The position numbers and the translations under genes are program-made. A DNA stretch of 64,000 bases from Pelagibius marinus (GTDB lineage Bacteria; Pseudomonadota; Alphaproteobacteria; Kiloniellales; Kiloniellaceae). Location of the stretch: contig NZ_JACSDK010000016.1 in the NCBI RefSeq assembly GCF_014925385.1, positions 1 through 64,000 of the forward strand. Reading direction: 5' to 3'. Below the pieces are notes generated by a model, which worked only from the letters and a program-made list of their open reading frames with translations, made no database searches and was not told the origin of the DNA. Of the stretch, positions 2,576 through 19,271 are shown in pieces (position 1 is the stretch's first letter; each line of letters starts with the position of its first letter).

Positions 2576-3649
2576 ATGAAAAGAATGCTCAGCGCATTGC
2601 CGGCATCTGCGGCGATGGCGCTCGCGCTTACAGGCAGCGCGGTCGCTGGGGACTGGTACCCCTATCCGGTCGAAGTCTGGGACCCGCCGTTCAACATGGA
2701 AAGCCCGCGCAAGACGATGGACTACGTGCCACTCGAAAAGGCCGCGGAGAAGTGGGACATCTGCGTTTCCTTTCCGCACATGAAGGACGCCTATTGGCTG
2801 GGGGTCGACTACGGCATCACCGAAGAGGCCAAGCGCCTGGGCGTGAAGGCCAACGTCGTCGAAGCGGGCGGCTATACCGAGCTCAACACCCAGATCTCCC
2901 AGATCGAGGACTGCGTCTCGGCGGGGGCCGACGCGGTCGTCATCGGCGCGATCTCCTTTGACGGATTGAACAACCTGGTCAAGGAGATTCGATCCAAAGA
3001 CATCCCGGTCATCGACGTCATCAACGGCATGTCCTCCAGCGAGCTCTCGGCGAAGTCGCTGGTCTCCTTCGGTGAGATGGGCGCTAAGGCCGGTGAGTTC
3101 CTCGCCAAGGTGCATCCCGCCGGCGGCAAGGCGGCAAAGGTTGCCTGGTTCCCCGGGCCGGCCGGCGCCGGCTGGGTGGAAGCGGGCAATACCGGCTTCC
3201 AAAGCGCGATCGCCGACAGCTCGGTCGAGCTGGTCGACACCAAGTACGGCGACACCGGCAAGGAAGCGCAGGCCAAGCTGGTCGAGGATGCGCTAGAGGC
3301 CTATCCCGATCTGAACTACATCGTCGGCACCGCGGTGACGGCGGAGGCCGCCGTACCGATCCTGCGTGCCCGCGGGCTGACCGATCAGGTCAAGATCGTC
3401 TCCTACTACTACACGCCAGGCGTCGACCGCGGCATCGCGCGCGGGCAGATTCTGGCGGCGCCGACGGATTCGACGGTCATTCAGGGGCGCATCGCGGTGG
3501 ACCAGGCCGTGCGTATCCTGGAAGGCAAGGGCTATCAGAAGCACGTCGGGCCGGCACTCTATGTCGTGACCCAGGAAAACCACGGCAAGTTTGACCCCGC
3601 GTCGACGCTGGCGCCGAACGGCTTCAGCCCGATCTTCTCGGTCGACTAG
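2576..3649 (+). CDS. TorT-like periplasmic substrate-binding protein
   Basis: A 357-residue periplasmic protein with a clear signal peptide (about residues 1-24, Ala-Val-Ala before cleavage). It belongs to the periplasmic-binding-protein type 1 fold and resembles TorT, which in the TMAO system partners a sensor kinase. Here it is directly followed by a ribose-type ATPase and permease, so it most likely delivers a substrate to that importer. The ATG at 2576 has an AGGAGG site just upstream and places the signal peptide correctly; an upstream in-frame start at 2522 would add an unlikely tail. The ligand is unknown; the downstream enzymes suggest a small amide or lactam. Confidence 0.8.
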   Translation: MKRMLSALPASAAMALALTGSAVAGDWYPYPVEVWDPPFNMESPRKTMDYVPLEKAAEKWDICVSFPHMKDAYWLGVDYGITEEAKRLGVKANVVEAGGYTELNTQISQIEDCVSAGADAVVIGAISFDGLNNLVKEIRSKDIPVIDVINGMSSSELSAKSLVSFGEMGAKAGEFLAKVHPAGGKAAKVAWFPGPAGAGWVEAGNTGFQSAIADSSVELVDTKYGDTGKEAQAKLVEDALEAYPDLNYIVGTAVTAEAAVPILRARGLTDQVKIVSYYYTPGVDRGIARGQILAAPTDSTVIQGRIAVDQAVRILEGKGYQKHVGPALYVVTQENHGKFDPASTLAPNGFSPIFSVD

Positions 3650-3669
3650 GCGCAGGCGACAAACGGACC

Positions 3670-5220
3670 ATGTCGACCTCACAGGCCGCCGTGCAAGGTG
3701 GGGGGGCGCCATCATCGCCCTCCCCCCTGCTGCAGACGATAGCCGTGACCAAGGACTATCCCGGCGTCAAGGCGCTGGACGGCGTGCACTTCGACCTGCG
3801 TGCCGGCGAGGTGCATGTTCTCTTCGGTGAGAACGGCGCCGGCAAGTCCACCCTGATCTCCATCCTGGCAGGCGCCAGCCAACCGAGCGCCGGCCGTATC
3901 CTCATCGATGGAGAACCCGTGACGCTGGCGTCGGTCCACGACGCCCGCGCCTACGGCATCTCCGCTGTGTTCCAGGAGTTTTCCCTGATCCCGCAGATGA
4001 CCGTGGAGGAGAACCTCTTTCTGGGCGCAGAGCCGACGCGTGGCGGCTTCACCGATCGGGCGCGCATACGCCGCGAGTCGCTGAAGATCCTCGGGGAACT
4101 GGGCTTCGCGTTGAAGCCCGAGCAGCGCGTTGATCATCTGACGCGCGCCGAGCAGCAGATGGTCGAGATCGCCAAGGCCTTTCGGTCCGACCTCTCCGTC
4201 CTTATCCTCGACGAACCGACGGCTTCGCTCACCAACCACGAGACCGATCGCCTCTTCGAGCTGATCGGCCAGCTGACCGGGCGCGGCGTCGGGATCGTCT
4301 ACATTACCCACCGCATGGCGGAAATCCAGCGCATTGGCGACCGCATTACGGTGCTGCGGGACGGACGCTACATCGACACCGTCGACGCCAAGACCGCCTC
4401 CGAAGACGACCTGGTCCGCCTGATGACCGGCCGGGTGGTTGGCGGCATATTTCCGCCGATCGACCTCGCGGCCCCGGGCGACACGGTTCTGGAGGTGCGC
4501 GATCTGACCACGCCCGACGAAGCGGTCGTCCAAGCCTCGATGCACGTGCGGGCCGGCGAGATCGTCGGCATGGCCGGCCTCGTGGGTTCCGGCAAGTCGG
4601 AACTGATGCAGGCCTGCTTCGGCGCCGGCCCGATCGCGTCCGGCAAAGTCATGCTGCGGGGCCGCGACATCACCGGACAGGGGCCGCGCCGCAACATCCG
4701 CGAAGGATTTCTCTATCTGCCCGCCGACCGGCGCAGCGAGGGCCTGATGATGATGCGCTCGGTGCGCGAGAACGTCGCGCTGGCCTCACTGGGCATCCCC
4801 CCCTTTTCCAACGGCCTTGTTCTCGACCGCGCCGGCGAGACGCAGAGGGTTACTGCGTTGGCCGAACGGCTGAACCTCTCACCACCGCGCATCGAGCGTG
4901 CCGTGGATCATTTCTCCGGCGGCAACCAGCAGAAGGTGATGTTGGCGCGCAGCCTGACGCGCAACTACGATCTCATCGTTTTCGATGAACCCACCGTCGG
5001 CGTCGATGTCGGCACTCGCGCGTCGATCTACGAATTCATCGTGGGGCTGGCACGCAGCGGTGTCGGCATCGTGCTGATCTCCTCCGACCTGCCCGAGATT
5101 CTCCACCTGACCACCCGCGCCTATGTCTTCTATCGTGGCGGCGTCCAGGCCGAGTTGCGGGCCGGCGAGCTTACGGAAGAGAACGTGCTCGCCCATTTCT
5201 TCGAGAGGGAGGCCGCATGA
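3670..5220 (+). CDS. Ribose-type ABC importer ATPase (two ABC domains)
   Basis: A 516-residue tandem ATPase of the RbsA/MglA type. The first domain has a canonical Walker A (GENGAGKST, about residues 55-63) and Walker B (LILDEPT). The second domain has the degenerate Walker A GLVGSGKSE usual in this family and the signature SGGNQQK. It powers uptake of the ligand captured by the preceding TorT-like protein through the following permease, at the inner face of the membrane. Its stop overlaps the permease start by 4 bp (ATGA), showing translational coupling. Sugar specificity should not be assumed, because the operon continues into amide and GABA enzymes. Confidence 0.9.
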   Translation: MSTSQAAVQGGGAPSSPSPLLQTIAVTKDYPGVKALDGVHFDLRAGEVHVLFGENGAGKSTLISILAGASQPSAGRILIDGEPVTLASVHDARAYGISAVFQEFSLIPQMTVEENLFLGAEPTRGGFTDRARIRRESLKILGELGFALKPEQRVDHLTRAEQQMVEIAKAFRSDLSVLILDEPTASLTNHETDRLFELIGQLTGRGVGIVYITHRMAEIQRIGDRITVLRDGRYIDTVDAKTASEDDLVRLMTGRVVGGIFPPIDLAAPGDTVLEVRDLTTPDEAVVQASMHVRAGEIVGMAGLVGSGKSELMQACFGAGPIASGKVMLRGRDITGQGPRRNIREGFLYLPADRRSEGLMMMRSVRENVALASLGIPPFSNGLVLDRAGETQRVTALAERLNLSPPRIERAVDHFSGGNQQKVMLARSLTRNYDLIVFDEPTVGVDVGTRASIYEFIVGLARSGVGIVLISSDLPEILHLTTRAYVFYRGGVQAELRAGELTEENVLAHFFEREAA

Positions 5221-6245
5221 TGGCCAAGGGTACCGCGACTGCGCGGCCGTCGGGCGGCGCGGGCGACGCCGCCAAGCGGCTTTTCGTCAAGCTCGGCATC
5301 CTGCCGTTCCTGCTGGTGATCGCTGTGGTGGTGTTCACGCTGATGTCGGACAACTTCCTGACGCCGCGCAACTTGATGAACGTGCTGCGCCAGTCAGTCT
5401 ATCTGATGATCGTCTCTCTGGGACAGATGATGGCGCTCTTGACCGGTGGTTTCGACCTCTCGGTCGGCACCATCGTGGCGCTTTCCTCTGTCGTGGGGGC
5501 GATGGCCATGGCCGCCGTCTTTGCCGCGGCGCCTGACGCGGTGTGGCTGGCGATCGCCGTCGGCTGCCTTGCCGGCATAGCCGCGGGGGTTGCCATCGGC
5601 GTCGTCAACGGCATCGGCGTCGCCTTTTTCAATGTCTCCCCTTTCATGATGTCCCTCGGCATGGCCTCGGTCGGCTTCGGCATCGCGCTCTACCTGACTG
5701 GCGGCGTCCCCGTCTACGGCATGCCGCAGGCCTTCGGCGACATCTTCGGTTTCGGCATGCTGTTCGGCGTTCCGGCACCAGTCTATGTCGCGGCGCTGCT
5801 CGTGGTGGCGCTCTATGCATTCCTCTACCGGACCCCGCAAGGGCGCTATTTCTATGCCGTCGGCGGCAACCTGAAGGCCGCTGCGCTGTCGGGCATCAAC
5901 GCCACCGGCACTCTGTTCTTCACCTATGTGTTCTGCGCCTTCTTCGCGGCGGTCGCCGGCATGCTCCTGACCGCGCGCCTGGATACGGGCGAGGCCAACA
6001 TCGGGGCCTCGATGCCGTTGGAATCCATTGCCGCATGCGTGATCGCCGGGGTGAGCTTGCGCGGCGGCGTCGGCCGGCTGGAAAACGTCGTGCTCGGCGC
6101 CTTGTTTATCGGCCTGGTGCAGAACGGCATGAATTTGGCGCGCATCGAGTCTTACCTGCAGACCGTGGTCCTCGGCGCCCTGCTGATACTCGCCGTGATC
6201 GCCGACCAGATCCGGCTCCGCTATGTCGCCTCGCTCAAGGATTAA
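5217..6245 (+). CDS. Ribose-type ABC importer permease
   Basis: A 342-residue inner-membrane protein of the RbsC family (BPD_transp_2) with roughly eight to ten hydrophobic segments and the typical GGFDLSVGTIVALSS segment near residue 77. It would form the homodimeric channel of the importer with the preceding ATPase and the TorT-like binding protein. It overlaps the ATPase gene by 4 bp and is followed after 13 bp by pxpA, so importer and enzymes share a transcript. Specificity is unknown. Confidence 0.9.
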   Translation: MMAKGTATARPSGGAGDAAKRLFVKLGILPFLLVIAVVVFTLMSDNFLTPRNLMNVLRQSVYLMIVSLGQMMALLTGGFDLSVGTIVALSSVVGAMAMAAVFAAAPDAVWLAIAVGCLAGIAAGVAIGVVNGIGVAFFNVSPFMMSLGMASVGFGIALYLTGGVPVYGMPQAFGDIFGFGMLFGVPAPVYVAALLVVALYAFLYRTPQGRYFYAVGGNLKAAALSGINATGTLFFTYVFCAFFAAVAGMLLTARLDTGEANIGASMPLESIAACVIAGVSLRGGVGRLENVVLGALFIGLVQNGMNLARIESYLQTVVLGALLILAVIADQIRLRYVASLKD

Positions 6246-6258
6246 GGAGAAAGAGAGT

Positions 6259-6987
6259 ATGCCTGTGGATATTAACTGCGACATGGGCGAGAGCTTCGGT
6301 CTTTACAAGATGGGCGATGACGAGGGCATGATGCCCTACATCACGCAGGCCAATGTCGCCTGCGGCTTTCACGGCTCGGACCCGAACCACATGCGGCGCA
6401 CGGTGGAGCTTGCACAGGCCCACGGCGTGAAGGTTGGCGCGCACTTCTCGCTGCCCGATCTGCCGGGCTTCGGGCGGCGGGAGATGAAGATCGACCGGGA
6501 AGAGATGGCGAACATCATCATCTACCAGATCGGTGCCCTGAAGGGTTTTCTGGACGCTGCCGGCGTACCGCTGTCGCACCTGAAACCGCATGGTGCGCTG
6601 TATGGGATGGCCGCGCGCCTGGAGCCGATCGCCCACGCCGTCGCCGATGCGGCGGAGGTCTACGAGGTGCCAGTGCTGGGTATGACCGGGACGCTGCATG
6701 AGCAGATATACGCCGACCGCGGTGTCGGCTTCCAGGCTGAGTTCTTCGCCGACCTCGACTATGACGACAAGGGCGGGTTGATGATCACCCGTGAACACGA
6801 CACCGTCGATCCGGCCTTTGCCGCGGCGCGCGCCGTCGAAGCCGTGCGCGACTGCACGATTGCCTCGATCAATGGCAAATCGCTGCAGGTGCGCGCCGAG
6901 ACCATCTGCGTTCATTCCGATACCCCGAACTCCGTTGCAATCGCCAAGGCGGTGCGCAAGGCGGTCGGAGAATTGGAAGCCGCCTGA
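6259..6987 (+). CDS. pxpA: LamB/YcsF family protein, 5-oxoprolinase subunit A-like
   Basis: A 242-residue protein of the LamB/YcsF family. The N-terminus VDINCDMGESFG, the ANVACGFHG segment and the SHLKPHGALY segment are the conserved blocks that form the active site. In PxpABC this subunit opens the ring of 5-oxoproline with ATP. Here it sits with a biotin carboxylase, a carrier and PxpB/PxpC homologues, suggesting that it hydrolyses an activated (carboxylated) lactam. The start at 6259 follows an AAGGAG site and begins directly with the conserved block; an earlier in-frame start at 6223 would overlap the permease. Confidence 0.9.
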   Translation: MPVDINCDMGESFGLYKMGDDEGMMPYITQANVACGFHGSDPNHMRRTVELAQAHGVKVGAHFSLPDLPGFGRREMKIDREEMANIIIYQIGALKGFLDAAGVPLSHLKPHGALYGMAARLEPIAHAVADAAEVYEVPVLGMTGTLHEQIYADRGVGFQAEFFADLDYDDKGGLMITREHDTVDPAFAAARAVEAVRDCTIASINGKSLQVRAETICVHSDTPNSVAIAKAVRKAVGELEAA

Positions 6988-7018
6988 CAGGCCGCCTGTC
7001 CAAGAAGGAGATCAAGCG

Positions 7019-7258
7019 ATGGCAAATCATGAGGTCAAGTCCCCGATCCCGGGCACCTTCTACCGCAAACCGGCTCCCGACCAGCCGCCCTACAAGGAGG
7101 TCGGGGATCAGGTCGTCAAGGGCGATACCCTCGGCCTTGTCGAGGTGATGAAGACCTTTCACGAGGTAAGGGCCGACGCCGACGGCACCCTCGCCGCCTT
7201 TCCGATCGAGGACGCCGAGCCGGTGATGGCCGGCCAGACCATCGCCGAGCTGGACTGA
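7019..7258 (+). CDS. Small biotin carboxyl carrier protein
   Basis: A 79-residue biotinyl domain. The attachment Lys is residue 45, in EVMKTFH, a variant of the classic MKM site, and Gly residues frame the hairpin as in other biotinyl domains. It is much shorter than the AccB of fatty-acid synthesis because it lacks the N-terminal extension, so it is probably a dedicated carrier. It would shuttle the carboxyl group between the biotin carboxylase encoded next and the PxpB/PxpC-type carboxyltransferase. The ATG at 7019 follows an AAGGAG site. Confidence 0.88.
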   Translation: MANHEVKSPIPGTFYRKPAPDQPPYKEVGDQVVKGDTLGLVEVMKTFHEVRADADGTLAAFPIEDAEPVMAGQTIAELD

Positions 7259-7265
7259 GGCAATC

Positions 7266-8657
7266 GTGGCCGGGACTATCAAGAAGCTGCTGATTGCCAA
7301 CCGCGGGGAGATCGCGGTACGCATCATCCGTGCCGCGCGTGATCTGGGCATTGCCACGGTGCAGGTCCACAGCGAGGCGGATGCCGAAAGCCGTGCGGTG
7401 CAAATGGCCGACGAGGCGGTCGACATCGGGCCGCCGCAAGCGGCGAAGTCGTATCTCAACGTCGAAGCGATCCTGAATGCAGCGAAGAAGACCGGCGCCG
7501 ACGCCATCCATCCGGGCTACGGCTTCCTTGCCGAGAACGCGGACTTTGCTGATGCCGTTGTAGCGGCTGGGCTGATCTTCGTCGGACCGAGCGGGGACAC
7601 GATCCGCCTGATGGGTGACAAGGCGGCGGCGCGGAAAGAAGCAAAGAAGGCGCAGGTACCAACCGTGCCGGGCAGCGACGGCGTCATCAACGGTATGGAG
7701 GTTGCCGCTTCGCAGGCCGAGGCCATTGGCTTTCCGGTGATGATCAAGGCGGCGGCGGGCGGCGGCGGGCGCGGGATCCGCGTTGCACAGGATGCGGCGG
7801 AATTCAGCGCACTCGCGCCCCAGGCTTCCTCCGAAGCCAAGGCCGCCTTCGGAGACGGCGGCGTCTATGTCGAGAAGGTCATCGAGCGCGCCCGACACAT
7901 CGAGGTGCAGGTGCTGGGCGACGGTGAGGATGTCGTCCACTTCTACGAACGCGAATGCTCGCTGCAGCGCCGGCGCCAGAAGGTCTGGGAGGAAGCGCCG
8001 TCGGCGGCATTGCCCGAAGCGGTACGCGACTCCCTTTGCACCGCAGCCGTCGCGCTTGCCAAGGCGGTCCGCTACAAGGGCGCCGGCACGGTCGAGTTCC
8101 TCTACGACGACGAAAGCGGCCAGTTCTACTTCATCGAGATGAACACCCGCATCCAGGTCGAGCACCCGGTGACGGAGATGATCTGCGGCGTCGACCTGGT
8201 GGCCGAGATGATCGCCATTGCCGGTGGAGAGAAGCTGCGCCTACGTCAGGAGGAAATCCGGCGTCATGGCCACGCCATCGAGGTGAGGCTGAACGCGGAA
8301 GACCCCGCCAACAATTTCATGCCCTTTCCCGGCATCGTCGGGGCGTTGGCGGTGCCTTCGGGGCCGGGCGTGCGTTTCGACCATATGCTCTACCCGGGCT
8401 ACGCAGTGCCGCCCTTCTACGATTCCCTGCTTGGCAAACTCATCGTCTGGGCCGAGGACCGTGAGAGTGCGCTGCGGCGGCTCGAGCGCGCCCTAAGCGA
8501 GCTGCAGGTGTCGGGCCTGCCGACGACGGCGCCGCTATTCCGGGCGCTGCTTGAAAGCGAGGAACTGCGTGCCAGCTCCGTACACACGCGCTGGCTGGAA
8601 CCCTGGCTCGAAAACAACATCGATCTCATCAGGCAAAAAGGAGGTGCAGGCGCATGA
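7266..8657 (+). CDS. accC: Biotin carboxylase
   Basis: A 463-residue biotin carboxylase of normal length with the three expected parts: N-terminal fold (IANRGEIAVRI), ATP-grasp region with a Gly-rich loop near residue 163, and the catalytic EMNTRIQVEHPVTE block at about 291-304. It charges the neighbouring small carrier with bicarbonate using ATP. Because it lies between the carrier and PxpB/PxpC homologues, it probably belongs to this dedicated enzyme rather than to housekeeping acetyl-CoA carboxylase; the symbol names the family only. The start is GTG, 7 bp after the carrier gene, and its end overlaps pxpB by 4 bp. Confidence 0.9.
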   Translation: MAGTIKKLLIANRGEIAVRIIRAARDLGIATVQVHSEADAESRAVQMADEAVDIGPPQAAKSYLNVEAILNAAKKTGADAIHPGYGFLAENADFADAVVAAGLIFVGPSGDTIRLMGDKAAARKEAKKAQVPTVPGSDGVINGMEVAASQAEAIGFPVMIKAAAGGGGRGIRVAQDAAEFSALAPQASSEAKAAFGDGGVYVEKVIERARHIEVQVLGDGEDVVHFYERECSLQRRRQKVWEEAPSAALPEAVRDSLCTAAVALAKAVRYKGAGTVEFLYDDESGQFYFIEMNTRIQVEHPVTEMICGVDLVAEMIAIAGGEKLRLRQEEIRRHGHAIEVRLNAEDPANNFMPFPGIVGALAVPSGPGVRFDHMLYPGYAVPPFYDSLLGKLIVWAEDRESALRRLERALSELQVSGLPTTAPLFRALLESEELRASSVHTRWLEPWLENNIDLIRQKGGAGA

Positions 8658-9526
8658 GCCGATACACATTTGGCGGCGACGAGCACATTTTCGTGGAGGT
8701 CGACGAGGCGATGACGCTGGAGGCCTTCTTCGTCAGCCTTTCCATGACCAATGCAGTGCGGGATGCCGGGATCAAGGGTGTCACCGAGATCTGCCCGGCC
8801 AATGCCTCCTTCCAGATCAAATTCGATCCTGACGTGATCCGCCCCGACGACCTGCTGGCGGAACTGAAGCGGCTGGAGGCAACGGCCGAGAACGCCGATC
8901 GCGTGCTGGACACGCGTATCATTGAAATTCCCGTCTATTACCAGGATCCCTGGACGCACGAGACGCTGATGCGGTTCCGCGAGCGGCACCAGGAACCGAA
9001 TGCGACCGACATTGAGTACGCCGCTTCGATCAACGGCTTCGACAGTGTGGAGAAGTTCATTGAGGCACACTCAGGGGCGCCGTGGTTCGTCTCCATGGTC
9101 GGCTTTGTCTCCGGGCTTCCCTTCCTCTATCAGATGGTCGACCGTCCGCGGCAAATCAAAGTACCGAAGTACCTGCGCCCGCGCACGGACACGCCGCGCC
9201 TGACGGTGGGCTACGGCGGCTCCTTTTCCTGCATCTACTCGGTGCGCGGCGCCGGGGGCTACCAGATGTTCGGCATCACGCCCATGCCGATCTTCGATCC
9301 AGAGCAGAAGGTCTCCTACTTGAACGACTTCATGGTGTTCTTCAAGCCGGGTGATATCGTCAAGTTCAAGCCCATCGACCGCAAATCCTACGATGCAGCC
9401 GTCGCCGAGGTTCAGGCCGGAAGTTTTGCGCCGAAAAGCAGCAGCGTCCGCTTCTCGCTCGACGACTACAACGCCGATATCGACGGCACCAACGCCAAGC
9501 TGATGGGGGCCCTCTATGCCGATTAA
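8654..9526 (+). CDS. pxpB: PxpB/KipI-type carboxyltransferase subunit, long variant
   Basis: A 290-residue protein of the AHS1/KipI family, longer than the roughly 220-240 residues usual for PxpB. The conserved core is present in altered form: GFVSGLPFLYQM replaces the common GF-PGFPYL block, and it continues with TPRLTVGYGGSFSCIYS and GGYQMFGITP. In urea carboxylase the equivalent half-domain, paired with the PxpC-like half, moves the carboxyl group from biotin to an amide nitrogen. It overlaps accC by 4 bp and pxpC by 11 bp, so equal production of the subunits is likely. The divergent core suggests a substrate other than 5-oxoproline. Confidence 0.82.
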   Translation: MSRYTFGGDEHIFVEVDEAMTLEAFFVSLSMTNAVRDAGIKGVTEICPANASFQIKFDPDVIRPDDLLAELKRLEATAENADRVLDTRIIEIPVYYQDPWTHETLMRFRERHQEPNATDIEYAASINGFDSVEKFIEAHSGAPWFVSMVGFVSGLPFLYQMVDRPRQIKVPKYLRPRTDTPRLTVGYGGSFSCIYSVRGAGGYQMFGITPMPIFDPEQKVSYLNDFMVFFKPGDIVKFKPIDRKSYDAAVAEVQAGSFAPKSSSVRFSLDDYNADIDGTNAKLMGALYAD

Positions 9527-10490
9527 CGTGATCTCCGCCGGTATCGCCACCACGATCCAGGACCTCGGGCGGCCAGGCTATTACCACCTGGGAATTCCCA
9601 TGGGCGGCGCGATGGACCGCTTGGCCCTGCGGGCGGCCAATCTGCTGGTCGGCAACGACGAAGGGGCGGCGGGGCTCGAATCTGTCTTCGTCGGTCCGGA
9701 GCTGGAAATTACCGAAGATGCAATGGTTGCCGTCTGCGGGGCGGAACTGCCGCCCAAGGTTGACGGCGAGCCGCGCGAGACGTGGACCGCTTTCCAGGTC
9801 AGGGCCGGCCAGGTTCTGTCCTTCGATTTCCTGCAGTCGGGTGCGCGCGCCTACATCGCGATTTCGGGCGGCATAAATACGCCACCAATGCTCGGCAGCC
9901 GATCGACTTACGCCATCGGTGCGCTGGGCGGCGTCAACGGCCGCGCCGTTCAGCCCGGCGACACCCTGCCGCTGGGCAACGGTGCGGACGCTAGAAAGGA
10001 AGGCTTGTCCGTGCCGCAGAAGCTGCGTCGCGGGCCGGGAAATGCCGCCGAGCTGCGCGTCCTGCCGGGGCTGTACTGGCATCGCATCACCGAAGCGGCC
10101 CAGCAGAACTTCTTCGCGGACACCTGGAAAGTGGCCAATGAGGCCGACCGCATGGGATACCGCTTCCAGGGTGGCCGTACGTTGGAGTTTGTGGAGCGCG
10201 AGCAACCATTCAGCGCCGGCGCCGATCCCTCCAACATCACCGATGCCTGCTATCCCTACGGTTCGGTCCAGGTGCCCAGCGGCACCGAGCCGATTGTGCT
10301 GCATCGCGACGCGGTCTCGGGGGGCGGCTACTTCATGCTGGGTACGGTCATATCCGCAGACATGGATCTGATCGGCCAGTTGCAGCCGCATACGCCGACG
10401 CAGTTCGTGCGGGTCGACATGGACAGCGCGCTCACCGCGCGGCACGACCGCACCGCGACCATGAACGCCATCCGTGAAGCTCTCTCCTGA
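9516..10490 (+). CDS. pxpC: PxpC/KipA-type carboxyltransferase subunit
   Basis: A 324-residue AHS2/KipA family protein of normal length. It begins with the hallmark ATTIQDLGRPGYYHLGIPMGGAMD and later has YIAISGGINTPPMLGSRST. It pairs with the preceding PxpB-like chain to make the carboxyltransferase half seen in urea carboxylase and in 5-oxoprolinase. The gene order carrier, biotin carboxylase, PxpB, PxpC supports a biotin-dependent reaction on an amide nitrogen. The substrate is not determined by sequence; 2-pyrrolidinone is my leading candidate because GABA-degrading enzymes follow. Confidence 0.87.
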   Translation: MPINVISAGIATTIQDLGRPGYYHLGIPMGGAMDRLALRAANLLVGNDEGAAGLESVFVGPELEITEDAMVAVCGAELPPKVDGEPRETWTAFQVRAGQVLSFDFLQSGARAYIAISGGINTPPMLGSRSTYAIGALGGVNGRAVQPGDTLPLGNGADARKEGLSVPQKLRRGPGNAAELRVLPGLYWHRITEAAQQNFFADTWKVANEADRMGYRFQGGRTLEFVEREQPFSAGADPSNITDACYPYGSVQVPSGTEPIVLHRDAVSGGGYFMLGTVISADMDLIGQLQPHTPTQFVRVDMDSALTARHDRTATMNAIREALS

Positions 10491-10508
10491 TCCAGAGGAC
10501 CCAAGACC

Positions 10509-11093
10509 ATGACCACGACCACCTATCCGACCCTCTCCCTCGCCGTCGGCGGCGGCAAAAGGGGCGCGCTTCGGTCGATTCTCCTTGCCCTGGCCGGCTC
10601 GGCCTTGCTCTGGACCTCAGCCAAGGTCCAGATTCCCTTTTATCCGGTGCCGATGACCATGCAGACCTTTGTGGTCCTCTTCCTCGGCTTCGTACTGGGG
10701 CCACGCCTCGGGGCGGCGACAGTGCTGCTCTACCTTGCCGAGGGCTTGGTCGGCTTGCCGGTCTTTGCCGGCACGCCGGAAAAGGGGCTGGGGCTGGCCT
10801 ATATGGCCGGACCGACCGGCGGTTACCTGGTGGGTTTTGTGATCTCGGCCTACATCGTCGGCTGGTGTGCGGAACGTGGCTTTGACCGTCGGCTGGTTCC
10901 TGCCGCGCTGTCCGCGCTTGTGGGGCTCATTGTACTCTACGTGGCCGGCCTCGCTTGGCTCGGCTTCGTGGTCGGCTGGGACAAGCCGGTGTTGGCCTGG
11001 GGCCTCTATCCGTTCCTTCCCGGAGAAGGTCTGAAGCTCGCCCTGCTGGCGGCGACGCTGCCTCTCGTCTGGCGTGGCATAGTCCGGCGCTGA
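10509..11093 (+). CDS. bioY: BioY biotin transporter
   Basis: A 194-residue membrane protein of the BioY family with about six hydrophobic segments and the conserved KVQIPFYPVPMTMQTF motif near residue 38. BioY is the substrate-binding S component of ECF-type biotin importers and works with BioMN or a shared energising module, or in some cases alone. No bioM or bioN is nearby. Its place within an operon encoding a biotin carrier and biotin carboxylase makes sense: it supplies the cofactor needed by the pathway enzyme. It starts 18 bp after pxpC. Confidence 0.92.
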   Translation: MTTTTYPTLSLAVGGGKRGALRSILLALAGSALLWTSAKVQIPFYPVPMTMQTFVVLFLGFVLGPRLGAATVLLYLAEGLVGLPVFAGTPEKGLGLAYMAGPTGGYLVGFVISAYIVGWCAERGFDRRLVPAALSALVGLIVLYVAGLAWLGFVVGWDKPVLAWGLYPFLPGEGLKLALLAATLPLVWRGIVRR

Positions 11094-11237
11094 ATGGACC
11101 AGACCCGGCGTCGTGAGGGACATGCCCTGCGCCGGCAAATGCACGTGCCTTCGGAGGAGTCGAATACTTGGACCCCGACGACGGCTCACGCCCCAACGAT
11201 ATACAGTTTCGGGTCATGCCGGCCGGAGGAGTTGCGC

Positions 11238-12512
11238 GTGCCTAATGCCAAGATTGAAGAACGCCGCACAGATGCGATAGCCCGCGGCGTTGGTGTTCAG
11301 ACACAGGTTTTCGCCGACCGTGCCAGAAACGCCGAACTATGGGACGTCGAGGGTCGTCGCTATATCGACTTCGCCTCCGGGATTGCCGTGCTGAACACCG
11401 GGCACTGCCATCCGAAGGTCATGAAGGCGGTTCATGAGCAATTGGATCGATTCACGCACACCTGCCATCAGGTGGTGCCCTACGAGAACTACGTTTCACT
11501 CGCGGAGCGGCTGAATGCCGTCGTGCCGGGCGGCGGCAGGAAGAAGACGATCTTTGTCACCACCGGCGCGGAAGCGCTCGAAAACGCCGTGAAAATCGCC
11601 CGCAGCGCAACCGGGCGCAACGCCGTCGTTGCTTTTTCCGGTGGATTCCATGGCCGCACGTTCATGGGAATGGCGATGACCGGAAAGGTGTTCCCATACA
11701 AGGCGGGCTTCGGGTCTATGCCGAACGACGTTTACCACGTCCCCTTTCCGATGGACCTGCACGGCGTGACCGAAGAAACGTCCATCGCTGCGCTCGACCG
11801 CCTGTTCAAGTCGGATGTCGATCCGGCGCGCGTCGCGGCGCTGGTCATCGAGCCGGTGCAGGGCGAAGGCGGCTTTTATGTGGCACCAAAAAGTTTCATG
11901 CGACACCTGCGCACGGTTTGTGACCGGCACGGCATTCTGTTGATCATTGACGAGGTGCAGACCGGCTTCGCGCGTTGCGGTACACTGTTTGCCATCGAGC
12001 AATACGATGTCGAGCCCGACCTCGTCACCATCGCCAAGAGTCTCGCCGGCGGCTTTCCGCTGGCTGCCGTCACCGGCAAGGCGAGCGTCATGGATGCGCC
12101 GTCACCGGGCGGACTGGGCGGCACCTATGGCGGCAGTCCGATCGGGATTGCGGCGGCCCATGCCGTGCTGGACATCATAGAGGAGGAGGGACTCTGCGAG
12201 CGTGCCAATCGCCTCGGCGCACGATTGAAACATCGGCTGGAATGCCTGCGTGACGAGGTCCCGGAGATCAGTGACATTCGCGGTCCCGGGTTCATGATTG
12301 CCGTTGAATTCAAGGATGCCGCCTCGGGCGCGCCCAGTTCGGCCTTCGCCGGCCGCGTGCGCGAGATCGCGCTTTCAAAGGGATTAATACTGCTTACCTG
12401 CGGTGTCCATGCCAATGTGATCCGCTTTCTGGCACCGATCACTATAGAGAACGCGGTCTTCACCGAAGCCCTCGACATCCTTGAGGCATCCATCCGGACG
12501 GCGCGGGCATGA
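11238..12512 (+). CDS. gabT: 4-aminobutyrate aminotransferase
   Basis: A class III PLP-dependent aminotransferase of 424 residues with strong GabT similarity throughout (RRTDAIARGVG, FASGIAVLNTGHCHPKV, EPVQGEGGFY). The PLP Lys is residue 267 in AKSLAGGFPLAAVTG. It converts GABA and 2-oxoglutarate to succinate semialdehyde and glutamate. I chose GTG at 11238: a GGAGGA site ends 7 bp upstream and the resulting length matches GabT. The earlier in-frame ATG at 11094 would add 48 residues lacking family similarity. It overlaps gabD by 4 bp, and its presence after the pxp-type genes suggests the imported compound yields GABA. Confidence 0.92.
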   Translation: MPNAKIEERRTDAIARGVGVQTQVFADRARNAELWDVEGRRYIDFASGIAVLNTGHCHPKVMKAVHEQLDRFTHTCHQVVPYENYVSLAERLNAVVPGGGRKKTIFVTTGAEALENAVKIARSATGRNAVVAFSGGFHGRTFMGMAMTGKVFPYKAGFGSMPNDVYHVPFPMDLHGVTEETSIAALDRLFKSDVDPARVAALVIEPVQGEGGFYVAPKSFMRHLRTVCDRHGILLIIDEVQTGFARCGTLFAIEQYDVEPDLVTIAKSLAGGFPLAAVTGKASVMDAPSPGGLGGTYGGSPIGIAAAHAVLDIIEEEGLCERANRLGARLKHRLECLRDEVPEISDIRGPGFMIAVEFKDAASGAPSSAFAGRVREIALSKGLILLTCGVHANVIRFLAPITIENAVFTEALDILEASIRTARA

Positions 12513-13996
12513 CGCCCTCGATAGAAGACGCCCTGAGTTCGCGCCTCTCTGATCCCACTCTTGTGCGACCGGCCGGCCTGGTGGGGCCGGATTGGATCGA
12601 TGCTGCCGGAAGCGGCGCCACATTCGCGGTCGACAATCCCTCGACCGGCGAAATCATTGCCAGACTGCCCGAGATGGGTGCGGAAGAAACACGCCGTGCC
12701 ATCGAGGTCGCCTACACTGCCCAGAAAGAATGGGCTCGGCACACCGGCAAGGAGCGCGCCGCCCTCTTGAGTGCGCTCTATGGGCTGATGGTCCGGCATG
12801 CCGACGATCTGGCGGCGATCCTGACCACGGAGATGGGCAAGCCTCTCGCCGAGGCGCGGGGAGAGATCCTCTATGGTGCGTCCTATCTGGAATGGTTCGC
12901 CGAGGAGGCAAAGCGCATACATGGCGATCTGCTGCTCGGCCACCAGCGCGACAAGCGCATCATGGTGATGAAGCAGCCCGTCGGCGTTGCCGGCCTGATC
13001 ACGCCGTGGAACTTCCCAAACGCCATGCTGGCGCGCAAGCTGGCGCCGGCACTGGCGGCTGGCTGCGCAGTCGTCGCCAAGCCGGCCGAGCAGACCCCGC
13101 TCTCAGCCATCGCGCTGGGCGTCCTGGCCGAACGTGCGGGGCTGCCGGCTGGCCTGTTCAACCTAGTCCTCGGCACCGACGGGCCGTCGATTGGTCAGGA
13201 GATGTGCGCCAATCCCAAGCTGCGTAAGATCAGTTTCACCGGCTCCACCGAGGTCGGCCGCATCCTGCTGCGCCAGGGCGCCGAGCAGGTTCTCAAGATG
13301 AGCATGGAACTGGGCGGCAACGCGCCCTTCATCGTCTTTGACGATGCCGACATCGACGCCGCTGTGGAAGGAGCAATGGTGTCGAAGTTCCGCAATGCCG
13401 GCCAGACTTGGGTCTGTGCCAACCGCATTTACGTCCAGCGCGGTGTCTATGATCTCTTCGCGGCGAAGCTGACCCAGAGGGTCGCCGAACTGAAGGTTGG
13501 AGATGGCTTTGAGGAGGATGTGACGACCGGGCCTCTGATCGACGGCCATGGGTTGGCCAAGGTAGAGGATCACATAGGCGATGCGGTTGCCAAGGGTGCC
13601 CGCATCGCCGCGGGCGGCAAGCGCTCGCAGAAGGGGGCGCTGTTTTTCGAGCCGACCATCCTTGCCGGCGTGACGCCGGCGATGAAGATCGCGCGCGAAG
13701 AAACCTTTGGACCGGTCGCCCCGCTCTTCGCCTTCGATACTGTCGAAGACGTGATCGTGCAGGCGAACGATACGGAGTTCGGACTTGCCGCCTATTTCTA
13801 TGCCCGTGACCTGTCGCGCGTCTGGCGCGTTGCCGAGGCGTTAGAGTACGGCATGGTCGGCGTGAATACCGGCCTCATCTCTACAGAAACCGCTCCTTTC
13901 GGCGGCGTGAAACAGTCGGGCCTGGGCCGGGAAGGCTCCTACTATGGAATCCAGGACTATCTGGAGGTGAAGTATGTCTGCTTCGGTGGCATCTAA
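12509..13996 (+). CDS. gabD: Succinate-semialdehyde dehydrogenase, catalytic Cys replaced by Trp
   Basis: A 495-residue aldehyde dehydrogenase of the GabD type, full length. NAD(P)-binding and general-base features are intact: TPWNFPNAM, FTGSTEVG and Glu267 in MELGGN. In the family the nucleophile is the first Cys of GQTCVCANR. Here the codon at 13409-13411 is TGG, giving GQTWVCANR, so residue 301 is Trp and only the second Cys (303) remains. TGG is one base from TGT or TGC. Either the enzyme is inactive, Cys303 has taken over, or the base is a sequencing error. Intended role: oxidise succinate semialdehyde from GabT to succinate. Confidence 0.88.
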   Translation: MTPSIEDALSSRLSDPTLVRPAGLVGPDWIDAAGSGATFAVDNPSTGEIIARLPEMGAEETRRAIEVAYTAQKEWARHTGKERAALLSALYGLMVRHADDLAAILTTEMGKPLAEARGEILYGASYLEWFAEEAKRIHGDLLLGHQRDKRIMVMKQPVGVAGLITPWNFPNAMLARKLAPALAAGCAVVAKPAEQTPLSAIALGVLAERAGLPAGLFNLVLGTDGPSIGQEMCANPKLRKISFTGSTEVGRILLRQGAEQVLKMSMELGGNAPFIVFDDADIDAAVEGAMVSKFRNAGQTWVCANRIYVQRGVYDLFAAKLTQRVAELKVGDGFEEDVTTGPLIDGHGLAKVEDHIGDAVAKGARIAAGGKRSQKGALFFEPTILAGVTPAMKIAREETFGPVAPLFAFDTVEDVIVQANDTEFGLAAYFYARDLSRVWRVAEALEYGMVGVNTGLISTETAPFGGVKQSGLGREGSYYGIQDYLEVKYVCFGGI

Positions 13997-15105: not shown

Positions 15106-17046
15106 CTAGACGGTGCGGCCAATCAAGGTGGCCAGCGCCTCTGTCGCGAAGGGCTTGGCCAAAGTGGGATAGGGGCAGGTGGCCGGCAAGTGGCCGTCCC
15201 GCGGCTCGGCATAACCGGTGATCAGGCCGATCCGGATCTCGGGAGCGACTTCCTTGGCCGTCTCGGCCAGGGACAGGCCGTTCATTTCCCCCTGCATGAC
15301 GATATCCGAGATGAGGTAGCGAATCTCCCCCACAGAGTTGATGAACTGCAGCGCCTCCTGTGCGTCTTCGGCTTCCAGCACCCCATAGCCGAGATCGACC
15401 AGTTGGCGCCGGACCACCGCGCGCACCGTTGGATCGTCCTCCACCAGCAGAACCAGTTCGCCCTTGCCGTGCGGTGTCTCGACGGCCGCGTCCGGCGTCT
15501 TCTCCAGTTCGGCATCGCTCTTTGCTTTGGCGCAGGGCAGGAAGAGCGCGACGCGCGTACCGCCGCCAGGTTCCGATTCGATCGTCACCCCGCCGCCGGA
15601 CTGACGCACAAAGCCGTAGACCATGCTCAGTCCCAGCCCGCTGCCCGATCCAAACTGCTTGGTCGTGAAGAAGGGCTCAAAGACTCGCCGCCGAGTTTCT
15701 TCATCCATGCCCTGGCCGCTGTCCTCGACCAGCAGCCGCACGTAGTCGCCGGTCGAAACCTCGAGGTGCTGTGCCTCGTCCCCCGCGAGGTGCAGTTCCG
15801 AGACATCGAAGACGATGCGCCCTGCATCGTGCATCGCGTCGCGGGCGTTGAGCGCCAGGTTCAGCAAGGCGTTCTCGAGCTGCCCCGGGTCGGCCAGAAC
15901 GCTGCGCGGCACCCCCCGGACCTTGGTCGCCACCTCGACCGAGCTAGGGAGCGAGCGGCGCAGCAGGCGCGACATGTCGGCCACCACTGCCTCGACGTCG
16001 ACGGACTGCACCTGAAACTCCCCGCCGCGGGCGAAGGTCAACAGGCGGTTGGTCAAATCGGCGCCCCGCTGGGCAGCGTGGACGGCCGGCTCGAGGTAGT
16101 CCGTTAACTGTTGCTCGTCCTCGATCTTTCCTCTCAGGGCCACCAGATTGCCGAGGATGATGGTCAGCAGATTGTTGAAGTCGTGCGCGATGCCGCCGGT
16201 AAGCCGGCCGACGGCTTCCATCCTCTGCGCCTGGCTCAACACCGCCTCCTGATGCCTCTGCTCCGTTACATCGAGCGAGAGCACGAAACAGCCGCGGATC
16301 TTTCCCTCGTCGTCGCGGTCGGGAATCAGGGTCGAGCGCATCTCGGCATGCCGTCCGTCAGGACCCTTGCGGCGATACTCGTAGGTCACCTCGCGACCCT
16401 CGAGTGCGGCGCTGACAGGGAGCTGCAACTCGGCATAGAGGTCCGGCTCCAACACCTGTTCCACGCGCATGCCGACGATCTCGTCCACTGTCCGACCGAA
16501 CCACTCGGCATAGCGCTTGTTGGCGAAGGTGTATTTGGGTTCCGTATCGATCGTGGCGATGAGGGCAGGGATGGCATCCGTTATCAACCGCAAGCGCTGC
16601 TCGCTTTCGTGCAGGTCCCGGGTCCGCTCGGCCACCACGCGGGCAAGGATTTCCTGCCGCTGACGCTGCTCGGTCACGTCCGTATAGGTGGTCACGAAGC
16701 CACCCTCCGGCAACGGGGTGCCACGAACGGAAATAATTTCCCCGGTCGGCCGCCGACGTTCCAGCTCATGGGGCTCGAAGGCCGCCGCCCGCGTCACCCG
16801 CTCCGCCACCAGTTCGTCGATGTCGCCTTCGCCATACTCACCGCGTTCGGCGTTGTAGCGCATGAAGGCAGAGAATGGCGTGTCCATCCGAGCGAGCGAT
16901 AGCGGAAACCCCAGCAGCTCGAAAAACCGGCGGTTCCAGCCGACCAGCCGCAGGTCGTTGTCGAAAACGGTGAATCCCTGGTTGATGTGATCCAGGGCGG
17001 CTTGCAGCAGCCTCAGCTGTGCGCTTTCCGGCGAATCCTTCGTCAT
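15106..17046 (-). CDS. PAS-containing hybrid sensor histidine kinase
   Basis: A 646-residue soluble hybrid kinase. In order: a PAS_7-type domain (about 10-125), a second PAS domain (about 150-270), a HisKA segment with the phosphoacceptor His in GGIAHDFNNLL (about 290), an HATPase domain with N and G boxes (LNARDAM, DSGQGMDEE), and a C-terminal receiver with Asp in LISDIVMQGEMNG. There are no convincing membrane segments, so it probably senses a cytosolic signal. I start it at 17046, after a GGAG site; a start at 17229 would add 61 low-complexity residues. The first PAS domain closely matches that fused to the divergent LivG. Confidence 0.9.
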   Translation of the reverse strand: MTKDSPESAQLRLLQAALDHINQGFTVFDNDLRLVGWNRRFFELLGFPLSLARMDTPFSAFMRYNAERGEYGEGDIDELVAERVTRAAAFEPHELERRRPTGEIISVRGTPLPEGGFVTTYTDVTEQRQRQEILARVVAERTRDLHESEQRLRLITDAIPALIATIDTEPKYTFANKRYAEWFGRTVDEIVGMRVEQVLEPDLYAELQLPVSAALEGREVTYEYRRKGPDGRHAEMRSTLIPDRDDEGKIRGCFVLSLDVTEQRHQEAVLSQAQRMEAVGRLTGGIAHDFNNLLTIILGNLVALRGKIEDEQQLTDYLEPAVHAAQRGADLTNRLLTFARGGEFQVQSVDVEAVVADMSRLLRRSLPSSVEVATKVRGVPRSVLADPGQLENALLNLALNARDAMHDAGRIVFDVSELHLAGDEAQHLEVSTGDYVRLLVEDSGQGMDEETRRRVFEPFFTTKQFGSGSGLGLSMVYGFVRQSGGGVTIESEPGGGTRVALFLPCAKAKSDAELEKTPDAAVETPHGKGELVLLVEDDPTVRAVVRRQLVDLGYGVLEAEDAQEALQFINSVGEIRYLISDIVMQGEMNGLSLAETAKEVAPEIRIGLITGYAEPRDGHLPATCPYPTLAKPFATEALATLIGRTV

Positions 17047-17401: not shown

Positions 17402-18553
17402 ATGGTGCCTGCCGGTCCGATGCAGGACGACACTCTATCCGCAGCGGCCCAACTGGACGTGCTGCAGGCCGCGCTGGATCAGCTGGACCAGGGGATCACG
17501 GTCTTTGACAGTGAACTGCGGCTGGTCGGCTGGAATCACCGCTTTTTCGAACTCCTCGACTTTCCCGCCGAGCTGGCCCGCCGGGGTTCGCATTTCTCGG
17601 ATTTCATGCGCTACAACGCCGAGCGCGGCGAGTACGGCCCCGGCGACGTGGACAAGCTAGTCGAGGAACGGGTCGCGCAAGCACGCCTGTTCCAGCCGCA
17701 CAGTATGGAGCGGGTGCGCCCGAGCGGCAACGTCATCGCGGTCAAGGGGATACCTTTGCCGGGCGGCGGCTTCGCCAGTATCTACACCGACATCACCGCG
17801 CAGCGGGGTTACGTCCTCAAGACCAAGGGGCTGACCAAGGAGTTCAAGGGCTTCGTCGCGGTCCGGAACGTCGACCTGAATGTCCGCAAGGGCACGATCC
17901 ATGCCTTAATCGGCCCCAACGGTGCCGGCAAGACGACGGTGTTCAATCTGCTGACCCGCTTCCTTGGGGCCACGGCCGGCACCATCACCTACAAGGGACA
18001 GGACATCACCCATACGCGCGCCGATACCATCGCCCGCCTGGGCATCGTCCGCTCGTTCCAGATTTCCTCGACCTTCGCGCATCTCAGCGTGCGCGAGAAC
18101 GTCCGCGTCGCCCTGCAGCGCAAGCACGGCATGGACATCCACTTCTGGCGGCCCCTGCGCTCGCTCGATGTATTGAATGACGAGGTCGACCGCCTGCTCG
18201 CCGATGTCGGGCTGGAGTCTTTCGCGGAAATCCCAGCGGTTGAGCTTCCCTATGGCCGCAAGCGCGCACTCGAAATTGCCACCACGCTGGCGCTCGACCC
18301 CGAGATGATGCTGCTCGACGAACCAACCCAGGGCATGGGGCATGAGGATGTCGGCCGGATCGCCTCCCTGATCCGCAAGGTGGCGGAGGGACGTACCGTG
18401 CTGATGGTCGAACACAACCTCGGCGTCGTCGCCAATCTGTCAAACTGGATCACGGTCCTGCAGCGCGGCGAAATCCTCGCCGAGGGCACCTACGGCGAGG
18501 TTTCCCGCAACCCCGCGGTGATCGACGCCTACATGGGGTCGGCCCATGCCTGA
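17402..18553 (+). CDS. livG: PAS domain fused to LivG-type ABC importer ATPase
   Basis: A 383-residue fusion. Residues 1-135 form a PAS_7-type domain (QGITVFDSELRLVGWN, FMRYNAERGEYG, IYTDITAQR). Residues 136-383 are a LivG-type ATPase with Walker A GPNGAGKTT at 171-179, a variant signature LPYGRKR and Walker B MMLLDEPTQGM. The junction is seamless: the PAS terminal motif is followed at once by LKTKGLTKEFKGF, the normal LivG beginning. No in-frame ATG, GTG or TTG occurs between the junction and Walker A, so LivG cannot be made separately. The PAS part could let a cytosolic signal gate transport. Downstream genes complete the importer. Confidence 0.9.
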   Translation: MVPAGPMQDDTLSAAAQLDVLQAALDQLDQGITVFDSELRLVGWNHRFFELLDFPAELARRGSHFSDFMRYNAERGEYGPGDVDKLVEERVAQARLFQPHSMERVRPSGNVIAVKGIPLPGGGFASIYTDITAQRGYVLKTKGLTKEFKGFVAVRNVDLNVRKGTIHALIGPNGAGKTTVFNLLTRFLGATAGTITYKGQDITHTRADTIARLGIVRSFQISSTFAHLSVRENVRVALQRKHGMDIHFWRPLRSLDVLNDEVDRLLADVGLESFAEIPAVELPYGRKRALEIATTLALDPEMMLLDEPTQGMGHEDVGRIASLIRKVAEGRTVLMVEHNLGVVANLSNWITVLQRGEILAEGTYGEVSRNPAVIDAYMGSAHA

Positions 18554-19271
18554 GACCGCGGACCAGCTTCAGCCGCTGATCGAGGTCGAGGGCCTGCACG
18601 CCTACTACGGCGAGGCCCATGTGCTGCACGGCGTCGGGCTCAAGATCTGCAAGGGAGAAGTGGTGACCCTTCTCGGCCGCAACGGCGCCGGCAAGACGAC
18701 GACTCTGAAGTCCATCATGGGAATGATCGGGCAGCGGCGGGGAGCGATCCGTTTCCGCGGCGTCGAGACCATTGCCATGAAGTGCAATCGGATCGCCCGG
18801 CTGGGCATCGCCTTCTGTCCGGAGGAGCGCGGCATCTTCTCCAGCCTCACGGTGGAGGAGAACCTTTATCTCCCGCCGGTGATTGCCGAGGGTGGACTCA
18901 CCATCGACGAGCTCTATGACCTCTTCCCGAATCTGAGCGAGCGGAGGCATACCCGCCAGGGCACGCGGCTTTCCGGAGGCGAGCAGCAGATGCTTGCCAT
19001 CGCCCGCATCCTGCGCAGCGGCGCCAGGGTTCTGTTGCTCGACGAGCCGACAGAGGGCCTGGCGCCGGTCATCGTCGAGCAGATCGGCAAGGTTATCGAA
19101 CAGCTCAAGAACCGCGGCTTCACCGTGCTTCTCGTCGAGCAGAACTTCCATTTCGCCTCCCGACTGGCCGACCGGAACTACGTCATGGAGGACGGCCGGA
19201 TCGTCGAAATGGTCGACCGCAGCGAGCTCGAGGAAAAGGAAGCATTGCTGCAGGAATACTTAGGAGTCTGA
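18546..19271 (+). CDS. livF: LivF-type ABC importer ATPase
   Basis: A 241-residue ATPase of the LivF family with Walker A GRNGAGKTT, signature LSGGEQQ and Walker B VLLLDEPTEGL followed by the LivF-typical APVIVEQIG. It overlaps the PAS-LivG gene by 8 bp and forms the second ATPase of the importer. Unlike LivG it carries no extra domain. The six genes from PAS-LivG to the CoA ligase are close together on the same strand, suggesting one transcript. Confidence 0.93.
   Translation: MPETADQLQPLIEVEGLHAYYGEAHVLHGVGLKICKGEVVTLLGRNGAGKTTTLKSIMGMIGQRRGAIRFRGVETIAMKCNRIARLGIAFCPEERGIFSSLTVEENLYLPPVIAEGGLTIDELYDLFPNLSERRHTRQGTRLSGGEQQMLAIARILRSGARVLLLDEPTEGLAPVIVEQIGKVIEQLKNRGFTVLLVEQNFHFASRLADRNYVMEDGRIVEMVDRSELEEKEALLQEYLGV

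Follow-up and report, generated by a model that had tools for sequence, protein, structure and literature searches.

What is made by a run of genes in which a biotin carrier and a biotin carboxylase stand among relatives of the 5-oxoprolinase subunits, followed by genes for the breakdown of γ-aminobutyrate (GABA)? Such a run lies in a 64,000-nucleotide stretch of Pelagibius marinus DNA (contig NZ_JACSDK010000016.1, positions 1 to 64,000; hereafter the window), which is part of one contig of a 5.44-Mb draft genome. There, a + strand operon at 2576–13996 encodes a TorT-like importer, PxpA, AccB, AccC, PxpB, PxpC, BioY, GabT and GabD. We read it, with a probability of roughly two in three, as an operon dedicated to the breakdown of a small lactam, the full scheme down to GABA and succinate included. 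The reaction class, biotin-dependent N-carboxylation of a lactam followed by ring opening, is well supported and likely, and we hold it with more assurance than the complete scheme; 2-pyrrolidinone is probably the main substrate of the window's copy, a point held somewhat less firmly than either. What we observe is the identity of the genes, how far they are conserved and linked, their residue patterns and their place in trees; complex formation, every reaction step and the substrate we infer.

In the proposed scheme, the TorT-like/RbsAC importer would take up the lactam. AccC, with ATP and bicarbonate, would carboxylate the biotin on Lys45 of AccB, with BioY supplying the biotin, and PxpB and PxpC would form a carboxyltransferase of the urea carboxylase (UC) type that passes the carboxyl group to the lactam nitrogen, as UC does to urea. 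N-carboxylation would weaken the amide, allowing PxpA to hydrolyse the ring, and the N-carboxy amino acid so formed, a carbamate, would lose CO2 spontaneously to leave an ω-amino acid. In the window's genome the most likely course would be from 2-pyrrolidinone (γ-butyrolactam) to GABA, which GabT and GabD would take on to succinate.

The enzymes of this scheme were listed in an earlier note on this DNA as lying at 6259–13996, and they do: sequence and profile annotation of the window found each gene, and all the named operon genes are intact and co-directional. PxpA, the proposed ring-opening hydrolase of the LamB/YcsF family (6259–6987; PF03746, 294.9 bits), passes the PxpA subfamily model NF003814 in a profile search (277.6 bits, cut-off 226) and has a further in-frame ATG at 6223. 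The genes for AccB, a biotin carrier of 79 residues with the sequence EVMKT around Lys45 (7019–7258; NF005457, 122.4 bits, cut-off 87), and for the biotin carboxylase AccC (7266–8657; NF009471, 758.2 bits, cut-off 686) sit between those for PxpA and PxpB. Next come the two putative carboxyltransferase halves, PxpB (subdomains C/D, 8654–9526; PF02682) and PxpC (subdomains A/B, 9516–10490; PF02626), and the biotin uptake protein BioY (10509–11093; PF02632, 134 bits). GabT (11094–12512) passes the GABA aminotransferase models NF005692 (785 bits, cut-off 724) and TIGR00700 (603.9 bits, cut-off 506.65), its family match beginning at residue 51, and its true start may be further downstream; GabD (12509–13996) passes the succinate semialdehyde dehydrogenase model TIGR01780 (699.1 bits, cut-off 646.35) and falls under the cut-off of NF008415 (726.6 against 828). 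Between 4 and 11 bases are shared by the adjoining genes in each of the pairs AccC/PxpB, PxpB/PxpC and GabT/GabD.

The two carboxyltransferase halves carry most of the argument. Both score under the curated cut-offs for 5-oxoprolinase subunits (PxpB 73.2 bits against 145.55 for TIGR00370, PxpC 226.6 against 500 for NF045499), and both match the UC model TIGR02712 as well or better (107.4 and 231 bits); with AccC at 534.3 and AccB at 21.1 bits, each separate protein scores below the single-chain cut-off of that model, 1303.85. We compared 94 PxpC and 95 PxpB of the biotin-linked family, to which the window's genes belong, with 17 fused UC-type proteins and 22 biotin-free sequences. A position was called UC-type if it is fixed (≥85%) in the biotin-linked family and in UC and rare (≤20%) in the biotin-free sequences. 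There are 12 such positions in each protein; before scoring, one column of PxpC and three of PxpB were dropped as gaps in the biotin-free sequences, and PxpB column 75 was retained despite a gap in 15 of the 22 biotin-free rows. Mean scores for PxpC and PxpB are 11.6 and 11.9 in the biotin-linked family, 11.8 and 12.0 in UC and 0.7 and 0.4 in the biotin-free sequences, and are circular for these three groups, the 12 + 12 positions having been selected from the very groups they separate. The window's own proteins score 11 (PxpC) and 12 (PxpB), and six sequences of a third type, which stood outside the choice of positions, average 9.5 for PxpC and 7.2 for PxpB. The residue swaps in PxpB include KY in place of RR and YQ in place of WH, and the stretch PSN..D..Y is present in Kluyveromyces lactis UC (3va7) and absent from Escherichia coli YbgK (5dud).

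Tree position agrees with these residues. A PxpC tree (56-row subset) shows four single groups, one each for UC, the biotin-linked family, the biotin-free type and the third type. A branch with support of 100/100 parts the biotin-free type from the other three, the third type being sister to UC. By residue pattern and phylogeny, PxpB and PxpC are not ordinary 5-oxoprolinase subunits but the putative halves of a split UC-type carboxyltransferase. The predicted PxpC structure has a mean pLDDT of 74 and falls below 50 at residues 233–272, the site of the UC-type stretch, too low for its geometry to be interpreted. The third type of PxpB/PxpC was seen at loci L047–L051 (genomes G196 and G081), with 4 to 5 PxpB matches per genome and many UC-type residues; AccC adjoins it in L047 and L048.

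Judged by sequence, the general features of a biotin-dependent carboxylase are all in the operon: a biotinylation motif, biotin carboxylase motifs, and CT_C_D and CT_A_B domains. In AccB, VMK followed by T or S is found in at least 87 of the 99 best matches, control loci included. AccC carries GGGGRG, HIEVQ, ERECSLQRRRQK and IEMNTRIQVEH, the usual biotin carboxylase motifs. The genome holds four further AccC-like proteins, at 53, 51, 49 and 43% identity to that of the operon, which is therefore an extra copy.

Is this grouping of genes peculiar to P. marinus? In a class sample of 289 genomes, 16 carry close PxpB orthologues, counting that of the window; apart from this one they are at 69–78% identity, and the next matches drop to 38%. 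A scan of a genome collection gave at least 592 relatives, of which the best 80 were kept; these are by their titles chiefly Alphaproteobacteria, with a few gammaproteobacterial members such as Marinobacter and Halothiobacillus, and as top matches to the window's family they are no random sample. Adding 7 plasmid records (of 60 among the 509 matching) and 11 of the 15 non-window class-sample loci (L032, L034, L036 and L043 were left out, as contigs of equal length recur in the set as L078, L080, L089 and L129) gave a set of 98 loci chosen by PxpB, with 40 control loci beside it. Of the controls, 20 are biotin-free pxpB loci, and the other 20, grouped as UC or other, comprise 17 fused proteins and 3 loci of the biotin-free kind. 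Neighbours were counted at a coverage of at least 60% and at identity thresholds of 50% for GabT and GabD, 45% for AccC, 40% for BioY and LysR, 35% for AccB and TorT, and 28% for HyuA, HyuB and CoxL.

By this count PxpC is found in all 98 loci, PxpA and AccB in 95 each and AccC in 94, and AccB and AccC stand near none of the 20 biotin-free pxpB loci. PxpA, AccB and AccC are missing at L090, L102 and L127, each cut by a contig end. The earlier note had proposed a search for the same gene order elsewhere, and it is because the other four genes recur in nearly all PxpB-chosen loci that the five-gene grouping is no chance arrangement. The fourth locus that lacks AccC, L039 (on a contig of 4716 bases), is not cut in this way: PxpB and AccB are immediate neighbours in it, an arrangement that the other loci do not share. 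The remaining neighbours are more variable: a LysR-family regulator is near 81 of the 98 loci, a TorT-like protein near 58, BioY near 26, HyuA near 25, HyuB near 20, a small cupin near 17, GabT near 10, GabD near 9 (both of them near 8), CoxL near 8 and a polysaccharide deacetylase near 7. BioY, GabT, GabD, HyuA, HyuB and CoxL are each near none of the 40 controls at the same thresholds. Below threshold and uncounted are class-III aminotransferases of 27–30% identity in 8 more loci and, among the 40 controls, two class-III aminotransferases (at 32 and 34% identity) together with three CoxL matches (26.6–27.6%).

The link to GABA catabolism recurs in several forms. GabT and GabD directly follow BioY in the window, are separated from it by a cupin gene in L063, lie farther downstream in L059 and L072 and upstream in L057 (Ruegeria sp. 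TM1040) and L099, and come after the importer in L120, L124 and L131; GabD alone follows BioY in L035, GabT alone follows the importer in L133, and GabT follows PxpC in L073. A GabT as close as the window's is uncommon, being found in 20 of the 289 class genomes (its own included) at E ≤ 1e-120. Near the 98 loci, ten GabT were seen where about 0.44 would be expected (20-kb stretches, one copy per 4.5-Mb genome assumed; Poisson 5e-11, the loci being related), and against the 0 of 40 in controls the Fisher p is 0.028. In a PxpA tree (69-row subset) the biotin-linked family forms two clades, B1, which holds the window's protein, and B2, about 40% identical to B1, both parted from biotin-free PxpA with support of 100/99; GabT occurs with both, at four B1 loci and six B2 loci. 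The B1 and B2 PxpA pair with PxpB and PxpC that are much more alike than they are, which looks like an exchange of the subunit that opens the ring.

Some relatives have other hydrolases and importers near the core. Of 26 HyuA near relatives, 11 match the equivalog model for the caprolactamase subunit CapA at E ≤ 1e-250, presumably the 11 that are at 69–95% identity or self; the HyuA of L100 and L089 are two whose bit scores exceed its cut-off of 1000, and the CapB of L089 and L135 are over theirs. The HyuB of L080 and the HyuA of L123 fail their cut-offs, so about half of the HyuA belong to another, unnamed group. HyuB and HyuA stand directly before PxpA in L089, L093, L100 and L119, as does HyuA alone in L094; among the scanned operon proteins of the window there is no Hydantoinase A/B domain. 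CoxL-type molybdenum hydroxylase genes lie near the core in L059, L060, L081, L096, L101, L106, L111 and L112. The CoxL-type protein of L059 matches the xanthine dehydrogenase and 4-hydroxybenzoyl-CoA reductase models below cut-off only, and there both the molybdenum hydroxylase genes and GabT–GabD lie to one side of the core, an order that may point to a cyclic imine being oxidised to a lactam. In many relatives (L053, L056, L080, L084, L097, L110, L128 and others) the TorT/RbsAC importer gives way to an ABC transporter of the polyamine type, accompanied by SDR genes, a binding protein and a GntR regulator, and some of these loci also carry a gene of the polysaccharide deacetylase family.

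Beyond the circular residue scores and the choice of best matches, several observations weigh against a UC-like lactam enzyme. By whole sequence, PxpC is closer to YbgK (177.8 bits) than to UC 3va7 (136.4), PxpB, in a sequence search of solved structures, finds better matches in PH0987 and KipI than in 3va7, and YbgJK is the best Foldseek match of the predicted PxpC structure. Positions common to the biotin-linked family and the biotin-free sequences and not to UC number 6 in PxpC and 10 in PxpB, and those common to UC and the biotin-free sequences and not to the biotin-linked family 3 in PxpC and 8 (non-gap) in PxpB. A hint of the substrate was sought in the PxpA residues of the biotin-linked family against those of biotin-free PxpA, and none was found: three positions differ, none obviously meaningful, and the residues do not part the two.

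How far do other readings account for these genes? It is improbable, in our judgement, that the operon encodes a biotin-dependent prokaryotic 5-oxoprolinase, turning 5-oxoproline into glutamate by the same chemistry with GabT and GabD as incidental passengers. That PxpA fits its subfamily model and shares its conserved residues with biotin-free PxpA would suit such an enzyme, as would the want of GabT and GabD near most relatives and of any other PxpB in 14 of the 16 genomes that carry the biotin-linked genes (a PF02682 search of these found two biotin-free PxpB at about 250 bits, the biotin-linked ones scoring 120 to 147). Yet every one of the 16 genomes has another candidate 5-oxoprolinase: 15 have a fused, top-scoring HyuAB protein of the 5-oxoprolinase type, and G131, the one exception, a biotin-free PxpB. 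5-Oxoproline was set aside as the main substrate. Within the HyuA/HyuB superfamily the oxoprolinases are the fused members (PMC8453981; this and the other papers cited here are represented by excerpts). The sole Hydantoinase_B match in the window's genome, on contig C3, is an open frame of 1232 codons, and its 1225-residue reading from L179 is a fused HyuA–HyuB protein whose best match, the 1288-residue 7hk5, was named N-methylhydantoinase by its depositors. The fused protein is less frequent where the only PxpB is biotin-free, in 6 of 15 genomes (18 less G001, G033 and G131, which carry the biotin system) or in 12 of 32 (genomes read from match lists, the biotin-free type being confirmed for part only and not for G070, for one), with Fisher p of 0.002 and 0.0002 among genomes that are not phylogenetically independent; the biotin-free enzyme could therefore replace the fused one, and the biotin-linked enzyme apparently not. 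The biotin-linked family would then not be needed as sole 5-oxoprolinase, the other enzyme being a candidate for that role. GabT and GabD, moreover, recur in several arrangements and with both types of PxpA, which does not suit passengers. Set against the lactam reading, a fused-type protein is common in the class (120 of 289 genomes at E ≤ 1e-185, a count that includes a few unfused proteins), and a second candidate 5-oxoprolinase would be compatible with redundancy.

An enzyme of the same kind acting on 2-piperidone or on a substituted γ- or δ-lactam, with GabT and GabD handling 5-aminovalerate and glutarate semialdehyde or hydroxylated GABA, is also unlikely for the window, though less so than a 5-oxoprolinase. 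Because GabT and GabD are linked at only about a tenth of the loci, a further point against our reading, there is room for such substrates, and CoxL genes in 8 of the 98 loci and SDR genes in others suggest oxidised ones. At the 11 loci with a CapA-type caprolactamase near the core, the biotin enzyme may indeed serve δ-lactams or substituted lactams, given these neighbours and their superfamily relative OplAB of Pseudomonas putida, which prefers δ-valerolactam (PMC11033972, in excerpt). The window's GabT and GabD, however, pass the GABA transaminase and succinate semialdehyde dehydrogenase cut-offs, and the regulator beside GabT in L057 is PuuR-like, albeit below its cut-off (127.5 bits against 211). 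Far less credible than either is a carboxylase of the fatty-acid type, in which AccB and AccC would serve acetyl-CoA or another acyl-CoA and lie beside a pxp operon by chance. Plasmid records of these genes were deposited as acetyl-CoA carboxylase, AccC just passes TIGR00514 (629.3 bits, cut-off 626.5), which also counts against a lactam enzyme, and the accBC beside pxp in Staphylococcus aureus were read as fatty acid genes (PMC11315280, in excerpt). But AccB fails TIGR00531 (74.8 bits against 115.2) and the annotated operon genes include no CoA-type carboxyltransferase; the genome also holds another AccC (53% identity, a 452-residue frame) with three more AccC-like proteins, and AccB, AccC, PxpB and PxpC keep together in nearly all of the 98 loci, with no AccB or AccC near the 20 biotin-free pxpB loci. 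An acetyl-CoA carboxylase duty of AccB and AccC was set aside, and so was urea as the substrate, there being no amidase gene among those annotated in the operon and the transferase standing in its own clade.

The putative lactam operon is flanked, and the window elsewhere occupied, by further genes. Its importer genes (2576–6245) run in the same direction just upstream of PxpA, outside the span 6259–13996. They encode the TorT-like periplasmic binding protein (2576–3649), an RbsA-like (CUT2) ABC ATPase that falls under every substrate-specific cut-off shown (3670–5220) and, by profile matches, an RbsC-like permease (5217–6245). The binding protein scores 412 bits against NF008185 TorT (cut-off 200) and 300.6 against TIGR02955 TorT (under the cut-off of 310); its best solved structure, 4yhs (E 5.8e-139), is BBta_2440 of Bradyrhizobium sp. 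BTAi1, nearly identical to the binding protein of a related operon in B. aeschynomenes (L134). Divergent from the operon is a LysR-family regulator (1331–2242, − strand), whose best NCBIfam match is a CynR-type LysR at 163.6 bits, below the cut-off of 277. Promoter-like sites are near-equal to expectation (3 against 2.3 in shuffles), and terminator-like sites number 14 against a shuffled mean of 7.6. Farther off, a gene at 17402–18553 (+ strand) encodes, in one reading frame, a PAS_7 domain (PF12860, 136 bits) fused to the UrtD-like ATPase of an ABC transporter (ABC_tran) and heads a urea/amide-type ABC transporter set (17402–22420); a match on a Cupriavidus plasmid spans the junction (residues 61–383), and the adjoining histidine kinase (15106–17046, − strand) bears the same kind of PAS_7 domain. 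The window also holds a gene for an Imm11-family immunity protein (453–1091, + strand; PF07791) and, at 24329–27468 on the − strand, a gene for a Dak1-type dihydroxyacetone kinase near another like that for enzyme I of the phosphoenolpyruvate-utilising phosphotransferases.

γ- and δ-Lactams are very stable, and are the monomers of nylon-4 and nylon-5. On balance, we favour the view that widespread bacterial split biotin-dependent lactam hydrolases, named acetyl-CoA carboxylase, allophanate hydrolase or 5-oxoprolinase, N-carboxylate the ring amide and are nature's efficient enzyme for γ-butyrolactam. If so, the biotin route would be an enzyme for opening this lactam, for which the authors of a 2023 study knew of no enzymatic ring-opening route (PMC11033972), and many genes called acetyl-CoA carboxylase and 5-oxoprolinase would have been misread. 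It would also answer, for this branch, a question raised in 2011, namely whether split UC-type transferases team up with biotin carboxylases of other kinds or have a different role (PMC3199775). A published test of this enzyme was not found among the open-licence papers listed, a weak absence, although genetics has revealed a fused fungal counterpart, and the excerpts of PMC11394868 hold nothing on the operon.

Against known systems, the earlier note's claim of a split biotin-dependent UC-like lactam enzyme, apart from 5-oxoproline metabolism, is supported in part: its core gains independent support from the UC-type residues, the tree, BioY, the caprolactamase-type neighbours, the recurrent GabT and GabD and the second candidate 5-oxoprolinase in 16 of 16 genomes. 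The arrangement is less new than it seemed, because Aspergillus nidulans lamA/lamB offers a fungal precedent and an acc–pxp operon of S. aureus is in print. The A. nidulans lamA and lamB mutants reportedly fail on 2-pyrrolidinone, and we take the UC P38095 of this fungus to be LamA. This protein, of 1241 residues, has served as a query in work that tabulates A. nidulans with UC and urease and, in the excerpt, without amidase/allophanate hydrolase (PMC3073912), which fits a substrate other than urea. LamB lends its name to the PxpA family PF03746 (LamB/YcsF), a likeness of family name and description, and YcsF is related to the lactam (2-pyrrolidinone) utilisation gene lamB (PMC3412718). AmdR controls amdS, gatA, gabA, lamA and lamB (PMC8016842); the lam genes are thus co-regulated with the gene for GABA transaminase, and the window's operon likewise has GabT and GabD. 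The fungal protein is fused, whereas the window's parts are split into four genes and come with an importer and BioY.

In S. aureus, a six-gene operon that includes pxpB, pxpC, pxpA, accB and accC was read as amino acid and fatty acid genes, two functions (PMC11315280); compared by description only, it has the same five kinds of gene as the window, and the excerpt mentions no importer or GABA genes. CapAB and OplAB share with the proposed enzyme the ATP-dependent opening of lactams, and CapA-type genes lie near relatives of the operon, but they are of a different protein family, and OplAB is nearly inactive on γ-butyrolactam, of which about 4% was consumed (PMC11033972). The PxpABC of E. coli, Bacillus subtilis and Corynebacterium glutamicum share PxpA with the window and agree with it in how PxpB and PxpC are folded overall; in the window the latter two are under the curated cut-offs and carry UC-type residues, and AccB and AccC are added. 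UC, of K. lactis (3va7) and of bacteria, has the same kinds of parts, a related carboxyltransferase and the UC-type residues, whereas the window's system is split in four genes, has a separate PxpC clade and is partnered by PxpA, not by allophanate hydrolase, no amidase being found among the annotated operon genes, to which that search was confined. The system would work like a UC joined to a lactam hydrolase, and by the cut-offs it falls in neither the PxpABC nor the UC equivalog; the operon appears as a split bacterial counterpart of the arrangement known from the fungal lamA/lamB and from urea carboxylase.

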